A DNA stretch of 64,000 bases from Nitrospinaceae bacterium. GTDB lineage: Bacteria; Nitrospinota; Nitrospinia; Nitrospinales; VA-1. This document shows positions 18,934-30,514 of this stretch, in pieces (within the stretch, counting starts at the first letter, position 1; every line of letters begins with the position of its first letter). Location: assembly GCA_021604505.1 (NCBI GenBank), contig BQJC01000003.1:124001-188000 (forward strand), in the 5' to 3' direction. Position numbers and translations under genes: made by a program. The notes under the pieces are model-generated. The model was not told where the DNA came from, did not search any database, and saw nothing but the letters and a program-made list of their open reading frames with translations.

Positions 18934-21780
18934 TTAATTATTCTCTAGAACTTTTTCGATCTCAGCTTCGAGGAAGGATTTCTTAAGGGATTCGTTCAAC
19001 CATTCGGCATCATAGCCTTTCTTGGACGTGCCTTCGATGAGAATGGTGATTTTCTTTTGATCCGATTTATCCGCCAGATCGGCAATGGCAGGCAGAACAC
19101 TCAATATTTGATCTTTCGTGGCTGTAAACTCGAGCCGCACGTTTTTCTTGCGGTCTTTTTTGGAAGAGGTTTTCGGGGCCTCGGCGGGCTGTCCCGAACG
19201 CAACGCCAGATCCTTGATTTTCAATGCCCGTTGATAAAGAGGATCCGACTTGGTGTATTCCCCCATTTCATAATACAGCTCCGCCAGGAAATTAAGCGGC
19301 TCTTCCAGATCCGCATGGTCCGGGCCCAGATTCTGCTCATAAACTTTCAATCCTCGAACCAGCAAGGGTTCCGCCTTCGCGTAATCGTTCATTCCGCGGT
19401 ACATGAGCGCCAGCTGAGTGAGGATGGGGGCCAGTTCCAGATGGTCCGGACCGACAGCGGACTCTTTGATCTTCAGCGCCCGTATCAGCAAAGGATAGGC
19501 TTTGGAAAAGTCCCGGGCCTCTGCGTAAAACCCTGCCAGATGATGGAGCGCTTGAGCCACTTCAGGATGATCGGGTCCGTGCGATTTCTCGGCAATCTGT
19601 AAAATGCGAAGGTACAAAGGCTCGGTATTTGACTTATCCCCTAAAGCGGTCAGAACTTGGGCCAGGTCTTTTAAAAGTTGAACGATATTCGGATGATCCC
19701 GGCCCTGGGACTTCTCGAAAATGACCAGAGAACGCTGAAGCAGGGGTTTGGCCTTTTCAAAATCTTTATCCGCTTTGTAAAGACTGGCAAGATCCCCAAG
19801 CGTTGTGGCAACGTCGAGATGATCCTTCCCGAGAGACTCTTCCCTGATCTTCAAAGCCCGGAGATACAGAGGTTCCGCCTGAGCCAGCTTGTCCTGAGCG
19901 CGTTGCAGATTGGCCAGATGATGGACGATTTCCGCCACCTCGGGATGATCTTCATGCAAAGCCTTTTCCCTGATTTTCAAAGCTCTGAGAAGCAAGGGCT
20001 CCGCCTGAGCGTATTCTTCCTTGGTGCGGTGCAGATCCGCAAGGTTCCTGAGGCACGTCGCAACGGAAAGATGATCCGGGCCATGGCCTTTTTCTGAAAT
20101 CGCCAGAGATTGCAGTAACAGCGACTCCACCTTGGCGTAGTCGCCCATGGCGCTATAAAGATCCGCCAGATGGTTCATACAAGCGGCGACTTCCTCATGA
20201 TCCCGGCCGAATCGCTCCTCTAAAATAGCAAGCGACCGTTTATAGAGCGGCTCGGCCTTGGCGTATTCTTTTTTATTCTCATAGAGCTTGGCCAGATTGA
20301 TGAGAGACAGCGCCACATCCGGATGATCCTTGCCCAGGTTCTTTTCGCTGATTTCCAGCGACCTGAGAAGCAAAGGCTCCACTTTTTCCAGATCCCCGGC
20401 ATTTCTGTAAAACTCAGCCAGATTATTGAGAGATTCAACCACCGAGGGGTGATCCGGCCCCATGGATTTTTCATTGATCTTCAAGGCGCGCTTCATCAGA
20501 GGCTCGGCCTTCGAGTGATCCCGCATGGCGTTATACATCTGAGCCAGATGCGCCAGGGATTGGGCGACATCCGGGTGGTCGGCACCCAACGCTTTCTCAC
20601 GCATCTGCAGTGCACGGGAAAATAACTGCTCCGCTTTGGAGTAATTTCCCATCGCGTCGTAGAGCGCCGCCAGGCTGTTGACCGTGGAAGCGATATCCGG
20701 ATGATCCGTCTCCAAAGATTTTTCACGGATCTTCAACGCCCTCTGATACAAAGGCTCGGCATCGTTAAACTTGCTTTCATTGCGGTAAAAATCGGCGAGA
20801 CTCGCCAGTGTCCCGGCAACATCAAAATGATCCGGGCCCAATGCCGCTTCCTGTATTTCCAGGCACCGGGACAAAAGAGGCTCGACCTTCGCAAACTCAC
20901 CCGACTCTTTATAGACCTCAGCCATATTGGCGAGGACCGGAGGAATCTCCTCATGGTCCGGCCCAAGGGCTTTTTCCTTAATCTTTAAAGCCTGCTCGAA
21001 AATGGGTTCCGCCTTGGAAAAATTTCCCATCTCCAGGTAAAGTTCCCCAAGAAAGTTCAGACCTTCGGAAACTTCCGGATCATCATCGCCCAGCGTTTTT
21101 TTAATGATTGCCAGGGCCTGGTGCACCAAAGGCTCCGCTTCCGAATATTTTTGCATCGCCCGGTACAAGACAGCGAGGTTGTTCAGGGTGGACGCGACAT
21201 CCGGGTGGTCGGCTCCCAGCGACATTTCACGGAGCTTCAAAGCCCGCTTCAAGAGGGGCTCAGCCTGCGCAAAATCGCCCCGGTCGTAGTAGTACAGTTC
21301 GGCCAGGTTGTTTAAAGATTCAGCGACATCCGGATGGTCGGGGCGAAGCGATTTTTCACGAATCTTCAAAGATTGAAGAAGCAACGGATAAGCCTTGGAG
21401 TAATACCCCATGTCCTCATAAAGAATCGCCATGTTATTCAACGTGGTGGCAACATCGGGATGATCCGGCCCCAGAGATTTTTCCCGGATTTTGCGCGATC
21501 GAAGGAGCAATGGCTCGGCCTTGCCCAAATCCCCCTTGTTTCTATACAACTCCGCCAGGTCATTCAGCGATTGCGCCACTTCCGGATGATCCGGCCCATG
21601 GTTTTTTTCCCCGATCTCAACCGCACGCAGGAGCAAAGGCTCCATTTTGTCGTATTCATTCTTGTTTTTGTAGAATTTGACCAGTTGGCCGATGGACTCG
21701 GCCACTTTGGGGTGATCCGGCCCAAACGTCTTTTCCAGAATGCTGAGGCTCAATTTATTGCTGATGATGGGGGTAAACAT
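18934..21780 (-). CDS. Giant kinesin-light-chain-type TPR protein (about 20 repeats)
   Basis: This 948-residue protein is nearly all 42-residue tetratricopeptide repeats with the consensus LGPDHPDVAxSLNNLAxLY. At DNA level this is a 126-bp tandem repeat over 2.6 kb. The last 75 residues are a distinct non-TPR domain (VRLEFTATKDQILSVLPA then KITILIEGTSKKGY). There is no signal peptide, so it is probably cytoplasmic. The frame is intact despite the repeats. Such long arrays scaffold proteins, but no partner is indicated. It lies 93 bp from the LuxR-type regulator on the same strand and may be downstream of it in one transcript. Confidence 0.9.
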   Translation of the reverse strand: MFTPIISNKLSLSILEKTFGPDHPKVAESIGQLVKFYKNKNEYDKMEPLLLRAVEIGEKNHGPDHPEVAQSLNDLAELYRNKGDLGKAEPLLLRSRKIREKSLGPDHPDVATTLNNMAILYEDMGYYSKAYPLLLQSLKIREKSLRPDHPDVAESLNNLAELYYYDRGDFAQAEPLLKRALKLREMSLGADHPDVASTLNNLAVLYRAMQKYSEAEPLVHQALAIIKKTLGDDDPEVSEGLNFLGELYLEMGNFSKAEPIFEQALKIKEKALGPDHEEIPPVLANMAEVYKESGEFAKVEPLLSRCLEIQEAALGPDHFDVAGTLASLADFYRNESKFNDAEPLYQRALKIREKSLETDHPDIASTVNSLAALYDAMGNYSKAEQLFSRALQMREKALGADHPDVAQSLAHLAQMYNAMRDHSKAEPLMKRALKINEKSMGPDHPSVVESLNNLAEFYRNAGDLEKVEPLLLRSLEISEKNLGKDHPDVALSLINLAKLYENKKEYAKAEPLYKRSLAILEERFGRDHEEVAACMNHLADLYSAMGDYAKVESLLLQSLAISEKGHGPDHLSVATCLRNLADLHRTKEEYAQAEPLLLRALKIREKALHEDHPEVAEIVHHLANLQRAQDKLAQAEPLYLRALKIREESLGKDHLDVATTLGDLASLYKADKDFEKAKPLLQRSLVIFEKSQGRDHPNIVQLLKDLAQVLTALGDKSNTEPLYLRILQIAEKSHGPDHPEVAQALHHLAGFYAEARDFSKAYPLLIRALKIKESAVGPDHLELAPILTQLALMYRGMNDYAKAEPLLVRGLKVYEQNLGPDHADLEEPLNFLAELYYEMGEYTKSDPLYQRALKIKDLALRSGQPAEAPKTSSKKDRKKNVRLEFTATKDQILSVLPAIADLADKSDQKKITILIEGTSKKGYDAEWLNESLKKSFLEAEIEKVLENN

Positions 21781-24330: not shown

Positions 24331-24448
24331 ACAAAGTTTTGTTACTTTTTCCTTAAAATTTTATTTAAATATCTATGAAATTTTTATTAATTTTTATATA
24401 ACATTTGAAAAAACGACAGAAACCTGGATATAATTTTTTGCTCCATTT

Positions 24449-24758: not shown

Positions 24759-26486
24759 GTGGACACCGTCACAAAAATTCCCTTGCCGACTCGGGAAGAT
24801 GTTCCCTTTGGTCCCAACATGACCGACTATGACGTTTGGAAACTGTATACCGTCCCTGAGATCGCGGCCATTGACAAAGAAAAGTTTCCGGCAAACAACT
24901 CTCTGGAAAATATTCTTAAAAACGACACCCGAATCAGACGTTACAAGCCGGGGGAGATTGTAGTTCGTGAAGGGGATTATGGAAACTCCGCGTTTCTGGT
25001 TCTCAATGGAACACTGCGTGTCGTTCTCTCTCCTGGACTCCCGGGTTTTCTTTTAGGACAAAAACCATCGCCCAAAAAAAGTTGGTGGAAGTCCTTGTCC
25101 CAGCTGTTGACCAATCGCAAGATTTCTGAGATCCGCGACATCCGCCGTTATTCAGACCCGGAAATTCTTCGCAAGGAGCCCGAAGCAGACCATTCCCCTG
25201 TATTTCTCCAGGATTTTTCCACGGTGTTGAATTCCAGTCATACCGGCACGCTGGAAGAAGGCGCTTTGTTTGGGGAGCTTGCCGCGATGGGACGAATCCC
25301 TCGCACGGCGACCGTTTTTTCCGAAAATCATGCAGAACTTTTAGAGATTCGCTGGCAAGGTTTGCGGGAACTTAGAAAATACGATCAGAACTGGCGTTCT
25401 TTAATCGAAAAACGCTACAGCCAAAGCGGTTTGGCCGCCTTTCTGAAAAAAACTCCCCTGTTTGAACATTTACAGACCGAAACCCTCCAGGAAATTGCCG
25501 CCAACACAGTTTTCAAATCTTATGGAACCTACGACTGGGCCGTCCCCTACAAGAGCATGCGGGATATGGGGGAAAAAGGAACCCAGCGCGAGCCGGCCAT
25601 CATCCGGCAAGGGGATTATCCGGAAGATCTGTTAATCGTTCGCGCGGGATTTGCCAGGGTCTCCACGCGTCAGGATGGCGGCGAACAAACGATCACTTAT
25701 CTTGGCGCCGGGCACGCTTATGGAGCCGACGAATTGCTCCGCCAATGGGAGGGAGAAAAGAATGTGTCGTTTAAAGCCTCCATTTCAGCTTTGGGTTATG
25801 TGGACATTCTCCAGATTCCAGCCGCTTATCTGGAAAAATATGTTTTTCCTTCACAGAGATTTCGTCACCGTCTTGAAAAGGGAAAAAACGAAACGCCAAA
25901 ACACGGTCGGCAAATTGAAAATTTATTCAACCAATCTTCTGCGGATAAAACCTTGATGGAGTGGGCCGTGCAGGAAAGGTTTATCAATGGCACGGAAGCC
26001 ATGTTGATCAATCTCGACCGTTGTGTCCGTTGCGATGATTGCGTCAACGCCTGCGCCGCCGCGCATGATGGAAACCCGCGTTTCATCCGTCACGGTAAAA
26101 TCTTTGGCAGCTGGATGGTTGCCAACGCCTGCATGCACTGCATGGACCCGGTATGCATGATCGGCTGTCCAACAGGAGCCATCACGCGGATGGTTGCCGA
26201 TGGGACCGTGGTGATCAACGACGACACCTGCATCGGCTGTGAAACCTGCGCCAATTCGTGCCCTTATTCAAATATTCAAATGGTGGAGATAAACGACCCA
26301 AAGGGCAATCCCGTTCTCGACTTTGAAAGTCACAAACCCATCTTGAAAGCCACGAAGTGCGATTTATGCATCGACCATCATGGCGGGCCTGCCTGTGTGA
26401 GGGCTTGCTCGCAAGGGGCTTTGCATCGCGTGGATTTTCATCATGCACATCCCCAGGGAGTCATCAATCGATGGGGAATCAAATAG
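24759..26486 (+). CDS. Cyclic-nucleotide-binding ferredoxin: two CNB domains fused to a four-cluster 4Fe-4S module
   Basis: The 575-residue protein starts at GTG 24759 after AAGGAGA. A first CNB domain (about residues 50-208, with an internal insert near 86-167) has an intact phosphate-binding cassette, FGELAAMGRIPRTAT. A second CNB domain (about 230-370) has GADELL but lacks the arginine, so it probably does not bind nucleotide. Residues 422-560 hold a DmsB/NrfC-type ferredoxin: CVRCDDCVNAC, CMHCMDPVCMIGC, CIGCETCANSC and CDLC...CVRAC, ligands for four cubanes. No signal peptide or Tat motif, so it is cytoplasmic. It overlaps the next gene by 16 bp. It probably relays electrons between the reductase and the membrane cytochrome, under nucleotide control. 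Confidence 0.88.
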   Translation: MDTVTKIPLPTREDVPFGPNMTDYDVWKLYTVPEIAAIDKEKFPANNSLENILKNDTRIRRYKPGEIVVREGDYGNSAFLVLNGTLRVVLSPGLPGFLLGQKPSPKKSWWKSLSQLLTNRKISEIRDIRRYSDPEILRKEPEADHSPVFLQDFSTVLNSSHTGTLEEGALFGELAAMGRIPRTATVFSENHAELLEIRWQGLRELRKYDQNWRSLIEKRYSQSGLAAFLKKTPLFEHLQTETLQEIAANTVFKSYGTYDWAVPYKSMRDMGEKGTQREPAIIRQGDYPEDLLIVRAGFARVSTRQDGGEQTITYLGAGHAYGADELLRQWEGEKNVSFKASISALGYVDILQIPAAYLEKYVFPSQRFRHRLEKGKNETPKHGRQIENLFNQSSADKTLMEWAVQERFINGTEAMLINLDRCVRCDDCVNACAAAHDGNPRFIRHGKIFGSWMVANACMHCMDPVCMIGCPTGAITRMVADGTVVINDDTCIGCETCANSCPYSNIQMVEINDPKGNPVLDFESHKPILKATKCDLCIDHHGGPACVRACSQGALHRVDFHHAHPQGVINRWGIK

Positions 26487-27286
26487 CCATGATCTGGGTT
26501 GTCTGGATAGCCGCTTTCCTGAGCTTGCTTTTTCTGAGGCTCTGGATCAACCAGGCTGAATTGACGACGGCTTTTCCAGCCCTTGTCAGCGGATGGTTTT
26601 TGTTCATCGTCTTGGTCGGCCTGGCACTTTTTAACATCCGAAAAAAATTGGCGATTTTTCCTTTAGCCAATTCTTCAAGCTGGCTGAGCGTCCATCTGCT
26701 GGGAGGGTTTTTAGCGGTCGGAATTTTCTGGATGCACACAGGTTCTCTTTGGCCCTTAGGAGTTTATGAAAAACTCCTGGCCCTTTTATTTTATCTGACG
26801 ACTGTGACAGGCATCCTGGGACTGGTCGTGCAAAAATCATTTCCCCGGCGCCTGACCCAAAGCGGGGGCGAATATATTTATGAACGAATTCCCATGGAAA
26901 TCGTTGCCGTTCAAAAACAGGTAAAGGATCTGCTATTGACCTGCACAGAACAAACCCGGCGCGACACATTGGCCACCCAGTACCTGGAGCATCTGGATTG
27001 GTACTTTCAACAGCCGCGATTTTTTTTGAGTCATGTCATAGGAGGTAAAAAAAGCGAAGCCTGGCTCCGTGAGCAATATTCCAATATCGAACTTACTTTG
27101 AGTCCACAGGAGAAAACGTTTCTGCAAAACTTATTCACCTTAGCCAATACAAAAAGAAGCATTGACCTTCACTTTGCCCTGCAGTCTATTCTCAAATTCT
27201 GGGTCCTGTTTCATCTTCCCCTGGCCGCCGCTTTGATGACCCTGGCCTTGTGGCATTTACTATTGGTCCATGTTTATTTTCTGTGA
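26471..27286 (+). CDS. Cytochrome b-like integral membrane protein
   Basis: ATG 26471 follows AGGGAG and overlaps the ferredoxin gene; ATG 26489 is the alternative. The 271-residue protein has about five membrane segments. Histidines lie in or next to them: VHLLGG, WMHTGS, DLHFAL, LFHLPL and LWHLLLVHV. Such placement suits b-type haem ligation between helices, though no named cytochrome b family is certain. A soluble loop of about 120 residues separates the first three segments from the last. It is translationally coupled to the decahaem gene through TGATG. Most likely it is the transmembrane electron conduit of this cluster. Confidence 0.7.
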   Translation: MGNQIAMIWVVWIAAFLSLLFLRLWINQAELTTAFPALVSGWFLFIVLVGLALFNIRKKLAIFPLANSSSWLSVHLLGGFLAVGIFWMHTGSLWPLGVYEKLLALLFYLTTVTGILGLVVQKSFPRRLTQSGGEYIYERIPMEIVAVQKQVKDLLLTCTEQTRRDTLATQYLEHLDWYFQQPRFFLSHVIGGKKSEAWLREQYSNIELTLSPQEKTFLQNLFTLANTKRSIDLHFALQSILKFWVLFHLPLAAALMTLALWHLLLVHVYFL

Positions 27287-29175
27287 TGGATGAAAACAAA
27301 TTTTCTCACAACCGAAACCAATACGACAGACCGGATTTCCCCTATCGGTGTGGACGCGGGGTCCTTTGGCTCAAACAATGCCATCAGGGCCCGACGGTCA
27401 AAGGTTTGTGCGGCGGCAAAACGGAATGCTCGCCTTATTTAGATGGAGACCGCTGGACCTGCAACCGCCCTCTATTCGCAGGCGGTCCTTGTGAAGACGG
27501 TCCGACATTGGATGGCAAATGCTGCAATACGCATCCCCCTTGTGTTCCCAGGCAAAGTCTAAAAACCTACCGCCGGCGGCTGGTGATTCTCGTCGTGAGT
27601 TCGCTTTTTGCGTTGATCTGCGTTTCATGGATGACGGATCAACTGCAGGAAAATTATTTTGGACTCAGTGCCGGCCCTCTTTCCAGCTCCCATATTAAAT
27701 TCGCTGAAAAGGACGGATGTCAGGTTTGTCATGAGCCGCATCGGAAAAGCGCCTTCAACTGGCTGAAGGCTTCGGTGACCCCGGTGAACCTCTCCGCAAA
27801 ATGCGAAGAGTGTCATGTTTTCGGCGGTCCGGCACTCAAGGCCCATAATGGCAATATAGAAGAAACCCCGCAATTGCAAGACACCCACTGTCTGATGTGT
27901 CATCGCGAACATAAAGGAGAAGCGTTCGGCACCCGAACCTTCACCAGCCGCAAATGCAACTTTTGCCACAAAACACAATTCAAAAGTTTTTCAAGCGGAC
28001 ACCCGGAATTTTCAACCGATTATCCGCATTCAAAAACGGACAGCATTAAATTCAATCATAGCACCCACCTTAAAAAGCATTTTTTGGAACCCAAACATTC
28101 CGATAAAGCCCCTGAAAACTGCATGGGGTGCCACAAACTAATGAACCAAGGGTCCTTCCAGTCCGGAAAATTCGAAGTGGTCTGCGCAGATTGTCATAAA
28201 TCTCAAATTCTCACCAAAGATCTGGTTCTCATCCGTCTGCCGGAACTGGACAAAAACCGTATCGATAAAGAAGCGATTATGAAGGCATGCGGAATCATGA
28301 GAGGAAGCAGTGCACCGCAAAAGGGAGACGAAGATTTTTTAAGCATTTCAACAGACACTCCCACTTTAACCACTTCCTACCTCTTAAACACGCCGGAAGA
28401 TGACCCTGAAGGTTATAGCGAAAAGCTGCAGGATCTTATTCTGGCCATGGCTCAGGAAAGCACTTCACCCATTGCAAATTTAATTGACCGGCACTCGCCT
28501 AGACCCATCGCAAAACAAATGTTGGCCGGGTTGAACCCGGAAGTCGTCAAACGGGCCGCCTGTGCCTGGGGACTGAATGCCGAATACGACCCACCAGCAA
28601 AAGCCAGTTTTGGCGGATGGCATGCGGACCTTTTGGAAATGCGCTACACTCCGGTCGATCATAAAGACCCGGTTGCTTTGAGCTGGATCGAGTTCGCGCT
28701 TGCTGTCCCTCTGGGTAAAATGGATGACATGAAACGGGAACGCGCCCTCGCCATGCGTGACCAGATGCTGTCTTCGAAGGAGGGCGTCGGAGGGTGCTTT
28801 AAGTGTCATGCCGCCAATGCCGCGCCATCTCTGGATGGAGAAAACAGGCTCTCAATTCACTGGGGATACAAAGACTTAAAAAATCTACCCTATTTGAAGT
28901 TCTCTCATAAAAGCCATTTAGACGTATTGGGAAAGGGAAAGGCGTGTAAAACATGCCATGTATTAAATGAAAGTACCCCCTTGGAATTGTCCGCAAACGA
29001 GCTCGATTCGATGCTCATCACCAGCAATTTCAATCCAATGAACAAAAACACGTGCATGAAATGCCATACCAAAGGAAAAGTCAGGCAAGAGTGCCAATTA
29101 TGTCATTCATACCACTTGGAGCCTGGCTTCAAAGAAAAAGTAACCCTCGCTAATAATCCATCGACAGGATTTTAA
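27286..29175 (+). CDS. Membrane-anchored decahaem cytochrome c with cysteine-rich cytoplasmic head
   Basis: ATG 27286 overlaps the preceding stop (TGATG), giving 629 residues. Residues 1-100 contain about eleven cysteines in CxxGP-like and CSP/CNRP contexts but no CxxCH. A basic stretch (YRRR) and one membrane helix (about 105-125) follow, so the head is predicted cytoplasmic. The periplasmic part has ten CxxCH haem sites: CQVCH, CEECH, CLMCH, CNFCH, CMGCH, CADCH, then after a haem-free stretch of about 200 residues CFKCH, CKTCH, CMKCH and CQLCH. It should carry electrons to or from the periplasm. The haem-free middle could be an interaction domain. Confidence 0.88.
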   Translation: MDENKFSHNRNQYDRPDFPYRCGRGVLWLKQCHQGPTVKGLCGGKTECSPYLDGDRWTCNRPLFAGGPCEDGPTLDGKCCNTHPPCVPRQSLKTYRRRLVILVVSSLFALICVSWMTDQLQENYFGLSAGPLSSSHIKFAEKDGCQVCHEPHRKSAFNWLKASVTPVNLSAKCEECHVFGGPALKAHNGNIEETPQLQDTHCLMCHREHKGEAFGTRTFTSRKCNFCHKTQFKSFSSGHPEFSTDYPHSKTDSIKFNHSTHLKKHFLEPKHSDKAPENCMGCHKLMNQGSFQSGKFEVVCADCHKSQILTKDLVLIRLPELDKNRIDKEAIMKACGIMRGSSAPQKGDEDFLSISTDTPTLTTSYLLNTPEDDPEGYSEKLQDLILAMAQESTSPIANLIDRHSPRPIAKQMLAGLNPEVVKRAACAWGLNAEYDPPAKASFGGWHADLLEMRYTPVDHKDPVALSWIEFALAVPLGKMDDMKRERALAMRDQMLSSKEGVGGCFKCHAANAAPSLDGENRLSIHWGYKDLKNLPYLKFSHKSHLDVLGKGKACKTCHVLNESTPLELSANELDSMLITSNFNPMNKNTCMKCHTKGKVRQECQLCHSYHLEPGFKEKVTLANNPSTGF

Positions 29176-29206
29176 GGCCGTCGCCACACAAAGGCCGCCA
29201 GGGATT

Positions 29207-30514
29207 TTGAACCCGGTCTGGAGAAAAATAATTTTGTTAGATATCGTCATTGGGCTTGCAGCCTTGACATTTCTCGCAGTACTCATCCGCTATGTGATCC
29301 AATTGATCGACAACAATGCCCGTCTGTTTGCCATCACCAAGAGGGGTTACGAGTTGGAATTGGAGTTGACGCGCGCCCGCCTGGAGCAGGTCAAACATCG
29401 AACCCAACAGGACGCCCAAATCGGCCCTGCATTATGGAAAGGGTTTCGCCGCTTCCAGATAATTTTTAAAACGATGGAAGCCAGACACGTTATTTCTTTT
29501 TATCTCGCCCCGGTGGATGGAAAACCTCTACCGTCATTTCTACCCGGTCAATACCTGACCTTCAAACTAAACATTCCCGGCCAACCCAAACCCGTCATAC
29601 GGTGCTATTCATTATCCGACAGCCCCAATCATCCCGATTATTACCGCGTCACCATCAAAAAACAATTTCCTCCCGACGACACGCCAGACGCACCGCCAGG
29701 CCTCAGTTCCAGTTTTTTTCATGACTCTCTGAACGAACGCGATGTGGTTGACGTGAAAGCACCCAGTGGCCATTACTATCTCGACCTGTCTAAAAATTCT
29801 CCCGTCGTTCTTATCGGAGGAGGTGTGGGCATCACTCCACTGGTGAGCATGTTGAACACGGTCAACGAAAAAGGCTGCAACGGGAAACTTTCGAACCGCG
29901 AAGTCTGGTTGTTTTTAGGCTTCAAAACCGGGTTGGACCACGTGATGAAAGGACATCTCGAGAGAATAGCCAAGATGCATAAAAATGTTTCCCTGCACAT
30001 TTGTTACAGCAGCCCAAAGGAAAGCGACATCATGGGCCGCGATTATCATCACAAAGGGCGAGTCACGGTGGAACTCATAAAACAAATCCTGCCTTCCATG
30101 GATTATGAATTTTACTTTTGCGGCCCGCCCAAAATGATGGAAGATCTTCACAAAGGGCTGGGCCAACTGGGAGTTGCAGAAGACAGTATCCATTTTGAAG
30201 CGTTCAATTCAGCCGCCATACAAAAAATATCAGGTTCCGAAACGACAGAAACAGAATCTCCTCTTAAGGTCACATTCTCCAAATCCCAACAGACTTTGCA
30301 ATGGAACCCGTCTGCGGGAACTCTACTTGCGTTTGCGGAGGAGAATGGAATCGTACTGGATTCCGGCTGCCGGGCAGGAAACTGCGGGAACTGTCTCACA
30401 ACCATTGAGCGAGGATTGGTGGACTACCTAGTGGAGCCGGGAAGAACGCCGGATGCCAGATCGTGTCTGGCTTGTATTTCCGTCCCTAAAACGGATTTAA
30501 CGCTGGAGGCGTGA
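29207..30514 (+). CDS. Membrane-anchored FAD/NAD(P)H reductase with C-terminal 2Fe-2S ferredoxin domain
   Basis: The 435-residue protein starts at TTG 29207; no ATG fits. An N-terminal membrane helix (about 8-30) and a coiled segment lead into an FNR-type module: RCYSLSDSPN binds FAD, GGGVGITPLVSML binds NAD(P)H, and YFCGPPKMMEDL follows. Residues about 345-435 form a plant-type 2Fe-2S domain, with CRAGNCGNC and a later C in CLAC. The layout resembles NqrF and oxygenase reductases with the ferredoxin placed last. It is 31 bp downstream of the decahaem gene and is the probable NAD(P)H entry or exit point of the cluster. It overlaps the convergent methyltransferase gene by 18 bp. Confidence 0.88.
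   Translation: MNPVWRKIILLDIVIGLAALTFLAVLIRYVIQLIDNNARLFAITKRGYELELELTRARLEQVKHRTQQDAQIGPALWKGFRRFQIIFKTMEARHVISFYLAPVDGKPLPSFLPGQYLTFKLNIPGQPKPVIRCYSLSDSPNHPDYYRVTIKKQFPPDDTPDAPPGLSSSFFHDSLNERDVVDVKAPSGHYYLDLSKNSPVVLIGGGVGITPLVSMLNTVNEKGCNGKLSNREVWLFLGFKTGLDHVMKGHLERIAKMHKNVSLHICYSSPKESDIMGRDYHHKGRVTVELIKQILPSMDYEFYFCGPPKMMEDLHKGLGQLGVAEDSIHFEAFNSAAIQKISGSETTETESPLKVTFSKSQQTLQWNPSAGTLLAFAEENGIVLDSGCRAGNCGNCLTTIERGLVDYLVEPGRTPDARSCLACISVPKTDLTLEA

Follow-up and report, generated by a model that had tools for sequence, protein, structure and literature searches.

The DNA analysed here, referred to as the window, is a stretch of 64,000 nucleotides from a Nitrospinaceae bacterium (GCA_021604505.1, contig BQJC01000003.1, positions 124,001 to 188,000), which contains a compact operon of four redox genes, named A to D (Table 1). 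Judging from composition and motifs, the operon matches the inner-membrane half of a PCC4-type system as described by He et al. in 2017 (PMC5566968). The explanation that we favour, with some reserve, is that this half is driven by NAD(P)H, gated by a signal and devoted to the outward export of electrons. The sequence-level evidence is made up of cofactor motifs, gene order and its conservation, a fusion between D and A, and co-occurrence with the outer half of the system; from it we infer a physical complex, the direction of flow, its gating and a final acceptor.

In the proposed mechanism, D would draw electrons from cytoplasmic NAD(P)H via flavin adenine dinucleotide (FAD) and a 2Fe-2S cluster, and the four [4Fe-4S] clusters of A would relay them to the two b haems of B. 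From B they would cross the membrane to the decahaem cytochrome C, and would then reach the periplasmic tetrahaem (h4) and pentahaem (h5) cytochromes and the outer-membrane barrel (X) of a second locus. The first cyclic nucleoside monophosphate (cNMP)-binding domain of A would be the sensor gating this flow, and FHA domains may do so in related versions.

Domain content and conservation of the operon

A reading of the same DNA made from the sequence alone had described four closely packed genes. The open reading frames (ORFs), their domains and their spacing are as it stated, and they are conserved in relatives. A and B overlap by 16 bp if B starts at the first of its two candidate ATG codons, B and C are joined by a TGATG coupling in which the ATG of C begins, and 31 bp separate C from D. 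The domain content is also as described, although the second cNMP domain of A and, in C, an 8-Cys domain and a transmembrane (TM) helix had gone unnoticed.

Pfam comparisons of A revealed cNMP_binding (PF00027, E 1e-24), Fer4 with 16 Cys corresponding to four [4Fe-4S] clusters, and a match to PF13247 (E 1e-9). All 16 ferredoxin Cys are kept in 80-81 of the 81 aligned sequences. In the phosphate-binding cassette of the first cNMP domain, G172 and E173 are present in 81/81 sequences of the alignment and R182 in 73, the other 8 having Gln. The second cNMP domain is devoid of the cassette Arg, and only the first contains a complete cassette.

In B, the WX3HX13H motif is present twice, and TM4 contains TGILG, with Thr replacing the Ser of the consensus SGIxG, in which both Gly are invariant. 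No Pfam family matched B above the cut-off. Its AlphaFold2 model has a mean predicted local distance difference test score (pLDDT) of 95.8, and a Foldseek comparison of this model with the PDB gave no fold match; PDB sequence searches with the B profile and with C returned nothing useful. C belongs to the multihaem cytochromes c of Pfam and has exactly 10 CXXCH sites. Ahead of its TM helix, a duplicated 4-Cys pattern was found in 63 of 77 C sequences. According to the positive-inside rule, this 8-Cys domain would lie on the cytoplasmic side, where it could bind a metal or an iron-sulphur (Fe-S) cluster; such a cytoplasmic domain on C is apparently new.

Among 60 related genomes, the own genome (G000) included, B homologues were found in 19, again counting the own one. 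The A-B-C order is common to 15 related genomes as far as contig ends permit, with short gaps and with D next wherever the contig reaches. When GTDB genomes were scanned with the alignment of A, at least 553 confirmed stretches were obtained, and in the best 80, which were read, A adjoins B in 79 loci and C accompanies both in 76, the exceptions being on contigs that end. By their titles, the hosts of these 80 loci are from Nitrospinota, Alpha-, Beta- and Gammaproteobacteria, Planctomycetota, Verrucomicrobiota, Acidobacteriota, Zixibacteria, Elusimicrobia, Omnitrophica, Poribacteria and SAR324, with one metagenome-assembled genome (MAG) labelled Chloroflexi, about a dozen phyla in all. The sequence-only reading had taken the genes for one unit, and the conserved gene order upholds it: in the cross-phylum loci, the homologues are not mostly apart.

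Recurrent around A-B-C in the 80 loci are h4, h5, X and D. In Hwanghaeella grinnelliae, a culturable relative, a single locus holds the four genes as D-A-B-C. Correlations of locus distances, which are descriptive since the locus pairs are not independent, reach r 0.79-0.88 among A, B, C and h4 (0.83-0.88 among A, B and C alone) and 0.96 between X and h5, while between these two groups they fall to 0.39-0.50; D is intermediate. Given this difference, the inner and outer parts seem to be exchangeable modules, and the two co-inherited sub-modules, A-B-C-h4 and X-h5, are apparently new.

Around the operon, no RNA element was found by Rfam across the region, and promoter and terminator scans gave signals close to background, the top promoter-like site being TTGAAA-18-TATAAT at 24405-24434.

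Table 1. Genes of the operon and their internal features, with positions in the window
Feature	Position	Strand	Remarks
Gene A	24759-26486	+	575 aa; two cNMP-binding domains, then four-cluster [4Fe-4S] polyferredoxin domain; cytoplasmic, no signal peptide seen
Phosphate-binding cassette, first cNMP domain of A (LFGELAAMGRIPRTATV)	25266-25316	+	G172, E173, R182
Polyferredoxin region of A	26022-26408	+	16 Cys = four [4Fe-4S] sites
Gene B	26471-27286	+	five-TM cytochrome-b-like inner-membrane protein; start ATG 26471 or ATG 26489
First WX3HX13H of B (W71, H75, H89), TM3	26681-26737	+	invariant in 62 sequences
Second WX3HX13H of B (W244, H248, H262), TM5	27200-27256	+	invariant in 62 sequences
Gene C	27286-29175	+	8-Cys domain (presumed cytoplasmic), one TM helix, decahaem cytochrome c (periplasmic); 10 CXXCH
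Cys-rich domain of C, presumed cytoplasmic	27349-27549	+	two repeats C-x(8-10)-CxxGPxxxGxC-x(4-6)-CxP; undescribed in Pfam
Predicted lone TM helix of C	27577-27633	+	KTYRRR just before; predicted from sequence
Ten CXXCH haem c sites of C	27718-29106	+	
Gene D	29207-30514	+	TM anchor at N-terminus, FNR-type FAD/NAD(P)H module, 2Fe-2S at C-terminus
2Fe-2S domain of D	30284-30490	+	Fer2, E 8e-9

Proposed links to NAD(P)H, the outer membrane and signalling

Behind a single N-terminal hydrophobic helix, D contains the Pfam domains NAD_binding_1 and FAD_binding_6 and a C-terminal Fer2, and the closest solved relatives of its core are the reductase domains of flavohaemoproteins and NqrF. Four Nitrospinota genomes have an alternative form, C'-[DA fusion]-B', where a protein of ~865 aa (L037-L043) beside B' and C' combines 2Fe-2S, FAD, NAD, cNMP, cNMP and 4x[4Fe-4S]. 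The 2Fe-2S domain comes first in this fusion and last in D, so the fusion looks like an independent route to the same domain set and makes a functional link between D and A more credible. The fused version comprises L037-L040 and L041-L043, and the same-genus genome G002 carries both versions of the module. In loci of Zixibacteria and Acidobacteriota, the flavoprotein near the module is Pyr_redox-FHA-FHA-Fer2, unrelated to D, and on a Sphingobium plasmid a second, distinct fusion, Pyr_redox-cNMP-Fer4, adjoins B- and C-like genes. Since the same polyferredoxin is supplied with NAD(P)H and FAD in several architectures, NAD(P)H is the likely cytoplasmic partner. The Sphingobium locus (L161, S. 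herbicidovorans plasmid pMSHV) has, besides the fusion, a b561-like protein and a cytochrome whose N-terminus bears an FHA domain, and a large multihaem protein is encoded close by.

The outer half is not in the window. In the own genome, one stretch of contig C1 (175029-179443) carries h5, X and h4, and A-D are on C3; the halves are likewise on different contigs in the same-genus G002 and G003 and together in G004, and in most relatives the A-D and X loci are contiguous. B and X are both present or both absent in 58 of the 60 genomes (shared by 18, with one exception each way; Fisher p 4e-13, a value made optimistic by kinship). The X protein of the relative L050 is a predicted beta-barrel (pLDDT 81), whose best structural matches are MOMP/OprD/Occ channels (E 3e-11), and both h4 and h5 carry the Cytochrome_C554 domain. 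A path of the kind traced by the sequence-only reading, from NAD(P)H through FAD, 2Fe-2S, 4x[4Fe-4S] and two haems b to ten haems c, is plausible; what that reading could not see is the outer-membrane half elsewhere in the genome.

Regarding a possible gate, D carries FHA domains in Hwanghaeella and at one further locus, as do the Pyr_redox flavoproteins and, in the Sphingobium module, C. Class III cyclase domains occur in the flanks of 7 loci (L045, L058, L084, L093, L098, L103 and L116) and Ser/Thr kinase domains in those of 5 (L045, L063, L072, L090 and L091), L045 having both; six of the cyclases, of the 7TMR-DISM type, were assigned by a profile that they share and by one member (L103) scanned with Pfam. 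The own genome encodes two class III cyclases, one of them ~21 kb from the outer-half locus. This proximity is no more than suggestive. The cyclic-nucleotide cassette conserved in A, the plug-in FHA domains and the nearby cyclases and kinases are apparently new. As a broader proposal, more tentative than the explanation of the window operon itself, the module might be a widespread signal-gated valve, where cNMP or, via FHA, phospho-Thr opens or closes the polyferredoxin, and so controls whether electrons from NAD(P)H leave the cell, by way of di-haem b and decahaem c, towards outer-membrane modules that are interchangeable.

In L056, L064, L082 and L111, D is immediately followed by a small ORF resembling a degenerate nucleotide cyclase, with a weak profile match and no Pfam match; as cyclase candidates, those of L064, L082 and L111 were not counted, for want of Pfam backing. 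A neighbour family of L046 and L048 was also discarded as kinases, since the grouping probably reflects TPR repeats only, and its counterpart in the window contains only these. A 948-aa protein with many TPR repeats is encoded at 18934-21780 on the minus strand.

Direction of electron flow and competing explanations

Net flow is most likely outward. NAD(P)H has a potential of about -0.32 V, so electrons run downhill on their way out and uphill on their way in to NAD(P)+, which favours outward flow. Reverse electron flow to NAD(P)+ in a nitrite oxidiser, put forward by the sequence-only reading, seems highly improbable to us. Every cofactor of a reversible path is present, as is a citrate-cleaving gene of the autotrophy type (ATP-citrate-lyase-type, found in the own genome as in nearly all relatives). 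However, the nitrite-oxidiser premise is not shown: NxrB was not detected in the own genome (96% complete, and multi-copy genes can drop out of assemblies), where the only NarH/type-II-beta-like match is gene A itself. NxrB-like matches of ~117 bits are found in several relatives, the same-genus G001 included, and its absence from G000 may be a real loss or a multi-copy gene missed in the assembly. Moreover, the module is also present in many taxa unlinked to nitrification, no pump, bifurcating flavin or other energy-coupling subunit is visible, and the flow would be uphill from any likely periplasmic donor, by ~0.3 V if Fe(II) is the donor and ~0.7 V if it is nitrite (textbook potentials). 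PCC4 as a replacement of Nxr in the family was also considered, and no association was found in the 60 genomes.

An inward direction was proposed for PCC4 by He et al., whose hosts include Alpha- and Gammaproteobacteria and Planctomycetes, iron oxidisers among them: electrons from an external donor, e.g. Fe(II) or Mn(II), would pass through the porin and the cytochromes to B and then to quinone, with A and D as accessories (PMC5566968). Among relatives, the four-gene form belongs to MAGs named OFTM, the prefix of the Oslofjord subsea tunnel study, where Fe/Mn-oxidising biofilms were reported (PMC10732223), and with an ATP-citrate-lyase-type gene present and NxrB undetected another lithotrophic donor is conceivable. 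We nevertheless regard inward flow as rather unlikely, since it leaves unexplained an NAD(P)H/FAD/2Fe-2S module that is kept in nearly every version, swapped for an unrelated flavoprotein or fused to A, and no evidence of a quinone site was found. At the outer end, the main rival is a reductase of soluble substrates, which shares the inner-membrane mechanism with the export that we favour. Here X would be an ordinary channel for a small oxidant or metal chelate, reduced in the periplasm by the cytochrome c554-like h5 and h4. The OprD/MOMP-like fold of X, the domain shared by h4 and h5, and the inheritance of X and h5 as a pair are in its favour, but no substrate-binding or catalytic signature was identified, and a purely periplasmic enzyme would hardly seem to need a wire of ten haems; this rival is possible, not probable. 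That the four genes encode co-transcribed redox proteins forming no physical complex is a further reading, and it is hard to reconcile with the fusions, the overlapping coding sequences and the tight co-inheritance of A, B and C, which make it very improbable.

NAD(P)H-driven, gated export faces difficulties of its own, in addition to the inward model published for PCC4. The likeness of X is to OprD/MOMP channels, not to a large barrel that could hold a cytochrome, so that electron passage through it is putative, and the X-h5 pair is only loosely tied in evolution to A-B-C (r ~0.4-0.5). D is co-inherited less tightly than its partners (r 0.57-0.72). No cyclase was seen beside the window operon, cyclases are near a minority of the loci, and the cassette of A could be structural. 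In the literature, we found no experimental work or biochemistry on any PCC4.

If this explanation is true, many aerobic and marine bacteria can send electrons of NAD(P)H straight to the periplasm or exterior, without quinone and under the control of a switch, the published direction of PCC4 has to be revised, and second-messenger control enters electron export. It also offers clear test proteins: A for nucleotide binding, and inverted vesicles for the flow from NAD(P)H to haem.

Comparison with PCC4 and other known systems

PCC4, as described in the main text of He et al., comprises a porin, cytochromes of 4, 5 and 10 haems and a conserved inner-membrane protein (IMP) with five TM helices, WX3HX13H on TM3 and TM5, and SGXXG on TM4; a pfam13247 Fe-S gene is upstream of the IMP in Subgroup II, and a further redox gene is near the tetrahaem gene, a trait shared with the system described here (PMC5566968). 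The sequence-only reading had recognised no described complex of this composition, a view that the likeness to PCC4 corrects. All the IMP traits are in B, with [S/T]GxxG on TM4, the 10-haem C is in the window, h5 and h4 are on C1, and A is the pfam13247 gene just upstream of the IMP. The difference is that the own genome splits the set over two loci, with X beside h5 on another contig than A-D. Cyclic nucleotides, ferredoxin, FAD and Nitrospinota receive no mention in the main text of that paper, and our literature searches for a cNMP-ferredoxin/multihaem complex returned no relevant paper.

The module shares multihaem cytochromes and an outer-membrane barrel with the porin-cytochrome conduits MtrAB and MtoAB, although X resembles OprD/MOMP-type channels instead of a large MtrB-like barrel. 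The FAD/NAD core of D is like that of the reductase domains of flavohaemoprotein and NqrF; unlike flavohaemoprotein, D is devoid of the globin domain, with a 2Fe-2S at its C-terminus and a membrane anchor at its N-terminus. In the NADPH oxidases and ferric reductases (FRD, PF01794), a cytoplasmic NAD(P)H-FAD module feeds two b haems ligated by HX13H, as in the module described here, whereas B has no PF01794 match or PDB fold match, and the module has in addition an Fe-S relay and a decahaem cytochrome.

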